64,000 nt of DNA from Streptomyces albofaciens JCM 4342. Its GTDB lineage: Bacteria > Actinomycetota > Actinomycetes > Streptomycetales > Streptomycetaceae. Each line of letters starts with the position of its first letter. Position 1 is the first letter of the stretch. The stretch lies in assembly GCF_008634025.1 (NCBI RefSeq), contig NZ_PDCM01000001.1, positions 62,001 to 126,000 of the forward strand. Direction: 5' to 3'. Of this stretch, positions 3,484-41,740 are shown one piece after another. The translations under genes and the position numbers were made by a program. Below the pieces are notes generated by a model. It was not told the DNA's origin. It saw only the letters and a program-made list of their open reading frames with translations, and searched no databases.

Positions 3484-4335
3484 ATGCCGCCGAGGAGCCA
3501 CCCGACCGCGCGACAGGCGCGGCTCGGCGCCGAACTGCGCAAGCTCCGCGAGCGCGCCGGCATAACCGGGGGCGAGGCCGCCGCGTTCCTCGGCGGCGAG
3601 CGCGCACTCGTGAGCCACATCGAATCGGGCCGGTACGGCGTGAGCGCGGAACGCGTGCGGCGGCTCGCCGCTTTCTACTCGGCCACGGATCGGGCCTTGG
3701 TGGACGCCTTGGCAACGATGGCGGAGGACCGCCGCAAGGGATGGTGGACGGACTTCCGCGGCATCCTCCACCCGAGCTTCCTGGACCTGGCGGAGCTGGA
3801 GTATCACGCCTCATGGATGCGCACCATCCAAATGCTGCACATCCCAGGGCAGTTCCAGACCGAGGAGTACGCGTTTTCGGTTTTCGGCGGCGCGGTGACC
3901 GAGGTTCCGCGCCGCGAGCTGGAGGCCCGCGTCGAGCACAGGTTGCGTCGGCAGCAGATTTTCGACCGGCCGACACCCCCGGCATTTGAAGCGCTGGTTC
4001 ACGAAGCAGCCCTCCGCATCTGCTACGGCGAACGCAAAGCCATGCGGACACAGCTCGACCGTCTGCTCGAAGCAACCGATATGCCGAGCGTAACCATCCG
4101 GGTCATCCCGTTCACCGCCGAGAAACTGACCGGCTCCGCTCACTCGATGTTGTACGCAGGCGGACCGATCCCGCCCCTAGACACCGTTCAGGTAGACAGT
4201 GCCTTTGGCGGCACCTTTCTGGACGCTGAGGCGCAACTCGCCAAGTATCGGGCGTTGGCCGAATCCGTAAAGGCCGTATCGCTCGACGCGGACGAGTCGC
4301 GCGACATAATTCACCGGATCGCACAGGAAATGTGA
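3484..4335 (+). CDS. XRE-family regulator with DUF5753 domain
   Basis: The protein has 283 residues. The N terminus is a helix-turn-helix (LGAELRKLRERAGITGGEAAAFLGGERALVSHIE, about residues 12-45). The rest is the DUF5753 sensor-like domain, recognisable by LEYHASWMRTIQMLHIPGQFQTEEYA, the VEHRLRRQQIFDRP segment, and IRVIPFTAEK with a C-terminal YRALAESVKAVSLDADES. These regulators are typical of Streptomyces and are almost always followed by a DUF397 protein, as here (start at 4346, 10 bp later). The ATG at 3484 is preceded by GAAGGGGAT. Known members act in developmental and antibiotic control. The adjacent graspetide operon is a plausible target. Confidence 0.9.
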   Translation: MPPRSHPTARQARLGAELRKLRERAGITGGEAAAFLGGERALVSHIESGRYGVSAERVRRLAAFYSATDRALVDALATMAEDRRKGWWTDFRGILHPSFLDLAELEYHASWMRTIQMLHIPGQFQTEEYAFSVFGGAVTEVPRRELEARVEHRLRRQQIFDRPTPPAFEALVHEAALRICYGERKAMRTQLDRLLEATDMPSVTIRVIPFTAEKLTGSAHSMLYAGGPIPPLDTVQVDSAFGGTFLDAEAQLAKYRALAESVKAVSLDADESRDIIHRIAQEM

Positions 4336-37239: not shown

Positions 37240-37622
37240 TTGTCCACAAAGTTATCCACAGGCGCCGTTCTCGACCTGGGGACAAGTCGACACGGCGGCC
37301 ACCTCAACTCGGACAGAGTCGACATATTGCTCTACCGACCCCCGGAACTCTCCACAGCGCCACAGCCCGTCCGCGTCAGCGCAATTCACGCGAACAATCC
37401 TTTAGGGCGAGGAAATCCCACACGAAAGAGCGTCGGCAAAGGGTTTCGCCGGCAAATCCCTGGCAACGGATTCTTGAAGCGGAACCAAACCTTCCAACTT
37501 CCACAGTTCCCACACACAGCCTGTGGATAAGATTCCGGAACTCCCCCAGCCCTGTGGACAACCCTGGGTACAACCGTCGTCGCCCTCCGCCGCACGGCAC
37601 CCGTCAACTCCGGCCGTCCACA
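37240..37622. promoter_or_regulatory. Cluster of DnaA boxes between pheA and serS
   Basis: In the roughly 1-kb non-coding region 36938-37933 there are five good DnaA-box matches. TTGTCCACA lies at 37240-37248, TTATCCACA at 37252-37260 and CCGTCCACA at 37614-37622 on the plus strand. The reverse-strand boxes are at 37522-37530 (TTATCCACA) and 37553-37561 (TTGTCCACA). A weaker CTCTCCACA lies at 37348. Outer boxes face inward as two pairs. The region is also lower in GC than its surroundings. No dnaA or dnaN is present, so this is not oriC. It may titrate DnaA or regulate initiation. Upstream, 36940-37140 holds short CGATGCCGA- and GGTGACCGGGCC-type repeats. Confidence 0.75.
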
Positions 37623-39223: not shown

Positions 39224-40065
39224 CCGCCGCTCCCGAACCCGCGCACCGGGCCGCTCCGGCCCGCCCGCTGCCGTACAGGCTCGTCGCGACCGACCTCGAC
39301 GGAACGTTGCTGCGGCCCGACGACACGATCTCCGAGCGCACCCGCGCCGCCCTGGCCACGGCCACGGCGGCCGGGGCCGCGCACATCGTCGTCACGGGAC
39401 GCGCGGTGCCGTGGACCCGGCACATCCTCGACGCGCTGGACTACGACGGCATAGCGGTGTGCGGGCAGGGCGCGCAGGTCTACCACGCCGGCGAACACCG
39501 GCTGCTGACCTCGGTCACCCTGGACCGCCAGCTCGCCGGGCTGGCCCTCGCCAAGATCGAGGCGGAGGTCGGCCCGCTGTTCCTCGCCGCGAGCCGGGAC
39601 GGCCTGGAGGGCGAGGTGCTGGTCACGCCCGGCTACCGCATCCAAGAGGGCCCGCTGCCGCACCTGATGATCGAGGGCCCCGGCGACCTGTGGTCGGCCC
39701 CCATCAACAAGATCTACATACAGCACCCGACGCTGGGCGACGACGAACTGGCCCGCGCCGCGCGCGAGGCCGCCGGCGACCTGGTCGGCGTGATGATGGC
39801 CGGCGAGGGCGTCGTCGAACTCCTCCCCCTCGGCCTCTCCAAGGCCACCGGCCTCTCCCTCGCCGCCCGCCGCCTGGGCGTCAAGGCCGCCGACACGATC
39901 GCCTTCGGCGACATGCCCAACGACATCCCGATGTTCGGCTGGGCAGCGCACGGCGTGGCGATGGCCAACGCCCACGAGGAACTGAAGGCCGTAGCGGACG
40001 AGATCACCGCCTCCAACGAGGAGGACGGCATCGCGGTGGTGCTGGAGCGGTTGTACAAGGCCTGA
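39220..40065 (+). CDS. HAD-family hydrolase (Cof-type phosphatase)
   Basis: The 281-residue protein has HAD motif [19 protein letters not shown] with the nucleophilic aspartate. Motif II is HIVVTGRA, and motifs III and IV are the lysine region [16 protein letters not shown] and [14 protein letters not shown]. The C2-type cap lies between about residues 90 and 200. Such enzymes dephosphorylate small sugar phosphates or nucleotides. The GTG at 39220 overlaps the serS stop (GTGA), an order conserved in Streptomyces, but no functional link to serine charging is known. The start is supported by the overlap. Confidence 0.92.
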
Positions 40066-40080
40066 GCCACGCCCGGCCGC

Positions 40081-40160
40081 CCTTCCGGATCTTCCGTCCG
40101 GGGCTTCCGGGGCTTCGGGGTCTTCCGGGGCTTACGGATCTTCCGGGTCTTCCGGAACGG
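40081..40160 (+). repeat. CTTCCGG-type short repeats after the HAD gene
   Basis: About nine units of 8-10 bp (GGCTTCCGG, GATCTTCCG, GGTCTTCCG) follow the HAD stop, ending in TTCCGGAA. The units are partly palindromic (CTTCCGGAAC) and may act as a terminator. From 40161 to 40383 no gene is seen. Confidence 0.5.
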
Positions 40161-40383
40161 ATGAGCGAACTCCTGCCCGCGAACGAGTAACTGTACGTTT
40201 ATCCGTTCGTTGTCCCCTGTGCGTGGAGGCAACTGGAGTTCGAGACGTCGAGAGACCGTGAAGTGCTGGGGTTTGCCGGTGACGGCCGTGACGCGGTGCA
40301 ACCGTACGGCTGAGACCCGGACATAGAGGTAGTGGCATCCGTGAGCAGCCTCCGCTCCTGTAGCCCTGGATACGGGCGTCCAG

Positions 40384-40410
40384 TTGAAAGGGACACCCTG
40401 TCCCTTTCAA
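40384..40410. promoter_or_regulatory. Perfect palindrome upstream of the antirepressor-like gene (copy 1)
   Basis: TTGAAAGGGACA (40384-40395) and TGTCCCTTTCAA (40399-40410) are exact reverse complements with a 3-bp centre. It ends 30 bp before the ATG at 40441. The same half-site pair recurs inside the gene at 40683-40713. An autoregulatory operator is the simplest reading. Confidence 0.82.
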
Positions 40411-40440
40411 ACCGTTCCGGTTTGAGTGGAGGGCATTCCG

Positions 40441-41163
40441 ATGCCACCCGAAGCTGTACTGCTGGAGTCGCGGGCCATGCGCGACAGTGTGATGGGCCGC
40501 ACCGAGGTCCTCGACAAGGTGAAGGCGCTCGTCCTGTTGCCGGATGGGACCCACGCGATCACAGAGGGCGTCGCTGACTACTTCGTTGTCCACAACGAGG
40601 TCATCAAGAAGCTCACCCAACGGCACCGGACAGAACTCGTCTGCAACGGGTTGCAGGTGCTGCGAGGCTCTGACCTGCGGGTCTTTGAAAGGGACAACTT
40701 GTCCCTTTCAAAGCATAGTTATCCACAGGGCCGAGCCCACCTCACCCTCTACACCCGCCGAACCATCCTCAACATCGCCATGCTCCTCCGCGACAGCGAG
40801 GTCGCGCGGGCGGTGCGTACGTACCTCCTCGACGCCGAGGAGCGCGGCCGCGTCGGTGTGCCCCGGCAGGCGGAAGGCGGGCCGACCCTGGAGTCCCTCG
40901 ACCACCGCCTCACCCACGTCGAATCGTCGCTCGCCGACATCGGGCCCGTGCTCCGGGACCTCGGGCCGGTGATCGGCCGTATCTCCGTGCGGCTGGACCG
41001 GCTCGACCGGCGGCTGGACGCGACGAACCGGGTCGTGTGCGCGATGAGTCTGCGGCTCAGTGATCTGGCGGAGGACGTCCGGGAGTTGCGGTACGGTCCG
41101 CGTCCGCTGCCGCGTCCGCACCGGCACCCGGGGTCAAGGGCCAGGCGGCGAGACCAAGGGTGA
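40441..41163 (+). CDS. Antirepressor-like DNA-binding protein with C-terminal coiled coil
   Basis: The 240-residue protein has an N-terminal region MRDSVMGRTEVLDKVKAL and GVADYFVVHNEVIKKLTQRHRTEL, then LTLYTRRTILNIAMLLRDSEVARAVRTYLLDAEE. The last part resembles the C-terminal helix block of phage Rha/ORF6N-type antirepressors. Residues from about 150 form a coiled coil (LESLDHRLTHVESSLADI, ISVRLDRLDRRLDATN). GGAGGG at 40428-40433 sets the ATG at 40441. A palindrome in the leader is repeated inside the gene, where it encodes FERDNLSLS. A DnaA-box-like TTATCCACA follows it at 40719-40727. The last 107 bp overlap the opposite-strand rhomboid-like gene. I infer a self-regulating DNA-binding protein. 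Confidence 0.7.
   Translation: MPPEAVLLESRAMRDSVMGRTEVLDKVKALVLLPDGTHAITEGVADYFVVHNEVIKKLTQRHRTELVCNGLQVLRGSDLRVFERDNLSLSKHSYPQGRAHLTLYTRRTILNIAMLLRDSEVARAVRTYLLDAEERGRVGVPRQAEGGPTLESLDHRLTHVESSLADIGPVLRDLGPVIGRISVRLDRLDRRLDATNRVVCAMSLRLSDLAEDVRELRYGPRPLPRPHRHPGSRARRRDQG
40683..40713. promoter_or_regulatory. Perfect palindrome inside the antirepressor-like gene (copy 2)
   Basis: CTTTGAAAGGGACAA (40683-40697) and TTGTCCCTTTCAAAG (40699-40713) are exact 15-bp inverted arms around one central base. It shares the TTGAAAGGGACA/TGTCCCTTTCAA half-sites with copy 1 located 299 bp upstream (start to start). Confidence 0.85.
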
Positions 41164-41740
41164 GCGCGATGGCGTGTCCGATGTCGGTGAAGGTGGCGCC
41201 TGACAGGAGCGGGATGCCGAAGAAGCCGATGACGGACGCCAGGTAGAGGTAGCGCCAGGGCGGCGGCAGCCGGTAGGCGAGCAGGCCGGCCGCCGCCGCC
41301 AGGCCGTACGAGACGCCGATGTCGACGACGTGCGTCATGGAGCGGGGCAACCGGTGGCCCTCGATGGCGAGCAGGACCAGTTCCTGGCTGGCGAGGGTGG
41401 CGGTGACGTGGGCGACGCCGATCGTCAGCAGCCAGCGCCAGGTGCCCAGCCAGCGCTCGACATTGGCGTGCACCAGCTCGAAGAGGACGGCGTACAGGAG
41501 GAAGGAGGACGGGTCCTCGATCCAGAAGCCGCTGATGAGGAGGGAGGAGAGGGGGTGCCGGTTCAGCTCGTGGATGTTGCTGCTGGTGCGGTGGAGGAGG
41601 AAGTCGCCCAGCCCCTCGGTGGCCCCCGCGACGACGAGGCTGGTGATGCCGATAACCAGCAGCCAGACGTGGGTGCCGGGCGCGGACCGTACCCAGGCCG
41701 CCACCCGGTCGGCCGGTGCGGCGGGGAGCACGGGTTTCAT
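41057..41740 (-). CDS. Rhomboid-like membrane protein
   Basis: The 227-residue protein has about six membrane segments: THVWLLVIGITSLVVAGAT, DPSSFLLYAVLFELVHANVERWLG, WLLTIGVAHVTATLASQELVL, VDIGVSYGLAAAAGLLAYRL, YLYLASVIGFFGIPLL and DIGHAIALTLGLAAWPL. The layout and the histidine in the last segment resemble the rhomboid-like family (Rhomboid_2/PF20401 type). The catalytic GxSG motif is replaced by DIGVSYGLA and the usual serine is only tentatively present, so protease activity is doubtful. The ATG at 41740 overlaps the AsnC gene's stop by ATGA, so both are transcribed together. Its 3' end overlaps the convergent gene. Confidence 0.8.
   Translation of the reverse strand: MKPVLPAAPADRVAAWVRSAPGTHVWLLVIGITSLVVAGATEGLGDFLLHRTSSNIHELNRHPLSSLLISGFWIEDPSSFLLYAVLFELVHANVERWLGTWRWLLTIGVAHVTATLASQELVLLAIEGHRLPRSMTHVVDIGVSYGLAAAAGLLAYRLPPPWRYLYLASVIGFFGIPLLSGATFTDIGHAIALTLGLAAWPLTPGAGADAAADADRTATPGRPPPDH

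Follow-up and report, generated by a model that had tools for sequence, protein, structure and literature searches.

The origin of phage lambda lies inside gene O, where four iterons serve origin function. Clusters of DnaA boxes in the chromosome of S. coelicolor are said, in the part of PMC5742627 cited here, to repress untimely initiation in the manner of datA, and E. coli datA and the S. coelicolor clusters are also covered in the cited part of PMC10950094. RepA of pWTY27, a Streptomyces replication protein, is proposed in the cited part of PMC3583192 to recognise an inverted-repeat stem-loop. The locus described here combines an inverted repeat (dyad) and a DnaA box within a protein gene. 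It lies in the window, i.e. the whole stretch of 64,000 nucleotides that was analysed, with the following features:

37240..37561, no strand assigned: DnaA-box cluster between pheA and serS, with TTGTCCACA (+), TTATCCACA (+), TTATCCACA (-) and TTGTCCACA (-)
40384..40410, no strand assigned: leader dyad, TTGAAAGGGACA-CCC-TGTCCCTTTCAA, 12+3+12, with the same arm sequence as the internal dyad
40441..41163, + strand: ORF6N-like gene of 240 amino acids, with an N-terminal ORF6N-like domain and a C-terminal coiled coil
40586..40594, + strand: second intragenic DnaA box, TTGTCCACA, little conserved and found at the same place (-112) in L005 and L159
40683..40713, no strand assigned: internal dyad, CTTTGAAAGGGACA-ACT-TGTCCCTTTCAAAG, 14+3+14
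40686-40710: family-wide core of the internal dyad, 11-3-11, with its centre at 40698
40719..40727, + strand: DnaA box TTATCCACA, starting 21 bases past the dyad centre, within S-Y-P-Q codons

The gene is apparently unstudied and, judged by homology, would encode a DNA-binding protein; an in-frame GTG is present at 40426. With the window protein as query, neither Pfam nor NCBIfam had a family above its cut-off, and a database search returned 868 relatives at E<=0.001 (the best 120 of the 868 being listed). Homology to phage antirepressors that carry ORF6N and KilAC domains covers the N-terminal half, bearing out the relationship to antirepressors proposed in the original prediction. The ORF6N domain (PF10543) itself gave no match in the window protein and weak matches in relatives, with a relative from Geobacillus virus E3 exceeding the cut-off (28.7 versus 27.8 bits). 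Likewise, no KilAC/ANT C-terminal domain was matched in the window protein, the C-terminal part of which is a coiled coil, and among solved structures this coiled-coil part alone gave matches. The AlphaFold2 model (38 sequences, mean pLDDT 76.6, pTM 0.47) has N-terminal helices and short strands, followed by a long helix at residues 150-218. In this model the 25-bp dyad encodes residues 82-90, where helix 76-86 ends and a loop begins, and residues 89-96, including the DnaA-box residues 93-96, have a pLDDT below 50. Such a loop, as modelled, should tolerate constraint on its DNA.

The same palindrome had been predicted in the leader and inside the gene. Both sites were confirmed, with identical arms, starts 299 bp apart and centres 301 bp apart; the palindrome as originally written, however, omitted the 3-bp spacer, and without the spacer there is no match in the window. 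In-frame reading of the internal dyad gives FERDNLSLSK, in agreement with the predicted FERDNLSLS. A search for GAAAGGGACANNNTGTCCCTTTC with up to three mismatches found two sites in the 9,252,595-base genome, both at this locus and with no further copies anywhere in the 9.25 Mb, and the reversed control pattern gave zero matches over the same genome. Hence the two dyads in the window are not due to chance.

The internal dyad was compared across the family, and a dyad was found at the equivalent gene position, in differing letters, in many of 46 Streptomycetaceae loci. The mean inverted-repeat score was 10.0 in 132 records versus 5.2 in 1848 control windows. In 180 of 219 gene copies (a set that includes some genomes fetched twice) 9 or more of the 11 pairs were present, and 178 of those 180 had their centre at codon position 3, which places wobble base opposite wobble base. 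With synonymous shuffling, in which the centre was free to move, 156 of the 219 copies reached p<=0.05 and 100 reached p<=0.01, compared with 5.3% of 438 control windows from the same genes at p<=0.05.

A pairing profile was obtained from the 149 distinct sites among these copies with at least 8 of 11 pairs at the usual position. Pairing ranged from 0.81 to 0.99 at k=2 to 12 and was near chance at k=1 and at most positions from k=13 outwards, giving sharp 11-3-11 bp edges; the filter on pairs lifts the level inside the dyad but does not set these edges. Letter diversity was high at most dyad positions, with C at k=3 in 144 of the 149 sites and A or T prevailing at k=2. Furthermore, on a FastTree tree (183 rows, dyad left out of the input) the paired state over k=2-12 must have switched 213 times or more, a count that covers pairing rows only, with phage and plasmid records left out, and that tree errors would inflate. 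Between L011 and L014, 1 of 52 residues before the site differs (5 of 79 overall), and k=9 is changed on both arms. Across 68 close pairs, which are not independent, one-sided differences (23) outnumber symmetric ones (12), indicating that mismatched intermediates exist. The internal dyad is a family-wide element that keeps its place and its symmetry, not its letters. Conservation of both palindromes at the DNA level, beyond amino-acid constraint, had been proposed as a check; it holds for the internal copy, as the synonymous shuffles and the 213 changes demonstrate, and not for the leader copy. Moreover, relatives with the palindrome and without FERDxLSLS are commoner than those showing the reverse, the case that would have counted against the original prediction.

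Symmetric changes could also arise without selection if template switching kept perfecting a functionless palindrome, and the segment does lie in a tolerant loop of low model confidence (residues 89-96, as above). The fixed 25-bp edges and reading frame, the excess of one-sided over symmetric differences in the close pairs (not independent, as noted) and the phased, nucleotide-conserved DnaA box described below all argue against this explanation, which we regard as barely credible.

The DnaA-box-like sequence predicted directly after the internal site is an exact DnaA box, TTATCCACA, and is conserved. The YPQ residues at the box are encoded as TAT CCA CAR in 101 of 101 cases, whereas elsewhere in the same genes TAT accounts for 15% of Tyr codons and CCA for 8.5% of Pro codons. 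TTATCCACA is kept at the nucleotide level, in rare codons. In the first subfamily the box is oriented away from the dyad and starts at +21, +30, +33 and +42 from the dyad centre in 28, 9, 52 and 2 of 198 distinct sites, respectively. Among the ten in-frame spacings from 18 to 45, these four are the ones that deviate from whole helical turns by no more than 1.5 bp; a set of four spacings is as concentrated in 3 of 210 cases, the counts sharing descent. The upstream unit of L008 breaks this phasing with a spacing of 24.

The dyad and box also occur as a unit in other arrangements. Nine copies, all from one genus (code g14), carry the unit as a mirror image with respect to transcription. A further three tandem units, 64 and 66 bp apart and with letters differing among them, follow the stop codon in L045 (S. 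smaragdinus) at 3780-3940, between the gene and its convergent neighbour, so that the unit needs no coding sequence. L112 and L180 each carry one unit 3′ of the gene, that of L180 being inverted. Dyad number varies as well, with one in the window gene and two each in L233, L234, L235 and L239. No near box accompanies the dyad in the second Streptomyces subfamily, in which 24 of 57 copies have a box 140-200 nt downstream, and phage homologues with the dyad have no DnaA box nearby; hence DnaA is not needed for the role of the dyad in that subfamily and in phages. Among the loci read, the near DnaA box is confined to Streptomycetaceae. Other 3-spaced dyads (at least 10 of 11 pairs) around oriC of the window's own genome are GC-rich for the most part; strict DnaA boxes are absent within 60 nt of any of them.

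An 11-bp stem with a 3-base loop and strong covariation is what an RNA hairpin in the mRNA, controlling translation, decay or termination, would show, and the two tandem units after the stop codon in some loci are consistent with it. Within the stem, however, there are 47 G-T and 35 A-C mismatches, the same ratio as outside it (121 to 95). G-T mismatches are thus tolerated no better than A-C mismatches, favouring a dyad that acts as DNA rather than RNA. The units mirrored against transcription in nine copies, the inverted unit past the gene in L180 and the phasing of the DnaA box also speak against a hairpin, and Rfam gave no match at E<=1 in 40000-41300. We therefore consider an RNA hairpin very improbable.

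A more serious alternative is a conventional operator, in which an encoded homodimer reads the half-sites base by base, with a specificity that co-evolves fast and with DnaA as partner or competitor. Of 150 genomes searched with up to one mismatch, 19 have a CATAG-type dyad, and in all 19 it is present as a single copy located in this gene; in the window's own genome the dyad sequence occurs twice, both times here. A sequence-specific, self-directed regulator would equally produce this once-per-genome pattern, which argues against reading by shape. The C at k=3 in 144 of 149 sites is also consistent with an operator, as is a protein whose homology points to DNA binding and whose coiled coil could serve dimer formation. 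Differing dyads within one genome or one stretch are, in contrast, odd for a normal operator and are the ground for proposing that shape is read. In 14 of 20 dyad pairs from one stretch the two dyads differ at 3 or more of 11 positions, both keeping at least 9 of 11 pairs; k=3 is common to 20 of the 20 pairs, k=2 to 16 and the other positions to 9 to 15. Likewise, G008 has two different perfect dyads and one gene copy found at E<=1e-5, and the symmetric change between L011 and L014 lies beside a nearly unchanged upstream domain. A conventional operator is a real possibility, but on this evidence a doubtful one.

The two identical sites in the window had been read as a looping or roadblock pair. 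For two identical operators bound by one protein the window itself is suitable, with identical arms at centres 301 bp apart. The leader dyad, at -56 to -30 (about -43), is found in the window, L005, L006 (apparently the same as the L054 record) and L007, and the leader copy is local to this S. rimosus-like group. In L005, L006 and L007 its letters differ from those of the internal dyad of the same locus, so the two identical sites are not a conserved pair, and that part of the original prediction is not supported. A loop or roadblock pair of identical operators is accordingly most unlikely, while roadblock autoregulation as such is possible. No DnaA box lies beside the leader dyad.

The search for second sites covered the interval between -900 and +700 relative to the internal site in 121 of the 132 records. 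A second copy beat all 20 permuted controls in 6 of the 121, some of these being tandem genes, and an upstream partner site as a rule was rejected on this count. L008 and L010 have a dyad plus DnaA box further upstream. A small inverted repeat, TCAAACCG-TTC-CGGTTTGA, at window positions 40407-40425 overlaps the 3′ arm of the leader dyad, with which it could compete, and is present in L005 and L006 as well.

The position of the gene relative to dnaA was determined in 61 genomes chosen for few contigs (24 of 60 Streptomyces-sample and 37 of 83 family-sample genomes with the gene). Here 74 of 75 gene copies fall into several distinct zones at distances of 13.5-117 kb from dnaA, with the window gene at 117 kb. 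The one remaining copy (L210, G331 C1:6454856), 2.0 Mb from dnaA, has the dyad and no strict DnaA box nearby. A strand-specific function at the fork was considered and rejected, as 19 of the 38 copies entered (of 75) are oriented toward dnaA and 19 away from it.

The pheA-serS cluster, with four strict boxes, lies 2.9 kb upstream of the window gene and is a conserved neighbour of the first subfamily. Of 17 contexts (window, L139-L152, L254 and L256), 16 have a group of two or more DnaA boxes no further than about 6.5 kb from the gene, a closeness to be read in the light of an oriC region that is generally rich in DnaA boxes; L141 has no cluster in 15 kb. The nearby cluster is that of pheA-serS for the first subfamily and one about 20 kb from dnaA for the others.

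A second conserved cluster, consisting of TTGTCCACA, about 150 bp, TTATCCACA, about 40 bp and inverted TTATCCACA, lies about 20 kb from dnaA and was seen at L245 13189-13376 as well as in L139-L152 and L256. It is also present in the genome of the window, where no second-subfamily gene was found. The clusters observed here may be the S. coelicolor clusters of Smulczyk-Krawczyszyn et al. 2006, with pheA-serS perhaps one of them. In G290 (L252, L253) repeated DnaA-box clusters alternate with gene copies or fragments, the dyads being identical, a pattern that suggests duplication and inversion of gene plus cluster as one block. Near dnaA at L258, around 15027 (G226 C1:4085027), a perfect dyad contains GTTTCACGTGAAAC, presumably the parS motif.

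The gene was detected in 60 of 150 Streptomyces genomes and was absent from 90 at E<=1e-5, so replication control in Streptomyces as a genus cannot depend on it. It is present in 83 of 200 family genomes (7 of 17 genera). A class sample of 393 genomes gave 21 with the gene, including two from outside Streptomycetaceae, which have neither dyad nor strict DnaA box. Phage and plasmid homologues, some of which are near-duplicates, have the dyad at p<=0.05 in 9 of 20 cases and not in 11; those with it come from Mycobacterium, Gordonia and Paenibacillus phages and an Alicyclobacillus plasmid. Among viral contigs there were 13 pattern matches, none a relative by tblastn. An origin remnant inside an initiator gene, i.e. 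a domesticated part of a phage replicon with Rep-binding dyads and DnaA boxes, would explain why dyad and box lie within a gene for a phage-derived DNA-binding protein, as well as the tandem units of L045 at 64 and 66 bp. The dyad is usually single, however, and the phage homologues have it without a near DnaA box, making this origin improbable.

Our best explanation, held tentatively and drawn from sequence comparison, is that the dyad and the DnaA box form a single near-oriC element of double-stranded DNA for DnaA-coupled autoregulation. Beyond the nucleotide-level conservation, the geometry and the place near dnaA, we infer who binds, the reading by shape and the effect on transcription or replication. 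DnaA would occupy the box and, on the same helix face, the ORF6N-like coiled-coil protein encoded by the gene would occupy the dyad. The dyad would probably be read largely by its symmetry or shape (cruciform-like) and not as one fixed sequence, since the kept feature is 11-3-11 self-complementarity with a nearly fixed C at k=3. The predicted output is a DnaA-coupled block to transcription inside the gene, amounting to autoregulation tied to DnaA; this is the most likely use, and replication control by the element is plausible. The locus would then be part of a datA-like system of DnaA boxes around the Streptomyces origin.

DnaA-coupled autoregulation is supported by the covariation, the box in rare codons, the phasing, the mirrored and noncoding units, the proximity to dnaA, the DnaA-box clusters near the gene in 16 of 17 contexts and the differing letters of paired dyads from one stretch. 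It is weakened by the boxless second subfamily and phages, the general richness of the oriC region in boxes, the spacing of 24, the one copy at 2.0 Mb, the 11 of 20 phage and plasmid homologues without a dyad and the absence of the gene from 90 of 150 Streptomyces genomes. That the element would, in addition, define a new DnaA-coupled class (a dyad read by symmetry or shape with a phased box in the gene of its partner, derived from phage antirepressor genes in which the dyad was already present, and retained next to oriC and DnaA-box clusters as the Streptomycetaceae counterpart of datA) is rather unlikely.

No description of this dyad-box element was recognised in the open-access literature, and the data suggest a DNA-level link between the gene and replication control that is so far undescribed. 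A gene that lies near oriC and whose conserved box ties it to DnaA may bear on the control of replication initiation in Streptomyces. Moreover, a covarying dyad can reside in the coding part of phage antirepressor genes; self-targeting of this kind escapes motif searches, as there is no conserved sequence to detect. If reading by shape proves true, this would be a DNA site defined by symmetry alone.

Compared with a classical sequence-specific operator, the locus has the two-fold symmetric site in its own gene but lacks sequence conservation among orthologues. It resembles autoregulators with intragenic operators in having a dyad in the gene of a DNA-binding protein, with a sequence found nowhere else in the genome; unlike theirs, its orthologues share the symmetry of the dyad only, not its sequence. 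The N-terminal domain is homologous to that of ORF6N/KilAC phage antirepressors, and some of those phage genes have a similar internal dyad, whereas the window protein has a coiled coil in place of KilAC and is encoded in the chromosome near oriC. As in lambda gene O, a candidate replication-related DNA element lies inside the gene of its putative binding protein, here with mostly one dyad versus the four iterons of lambda. The repeat of pWTY27 differs in being about 105 bp long and outside the gene, as described in the cited part of PMC3583192. In common with datA-type loci (E. coli datA and the S. coelicolor clusters), as presented in the cited parts of the two papers above, there are chromosomal DnaA boxes near oriC that adjoin the site of a second DNA-binding factor. 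Unlike those loci, so described, a single box stands here beside a covarying dyad inside a protein gene, and the putative partner is the gene's own product rather than IHF.
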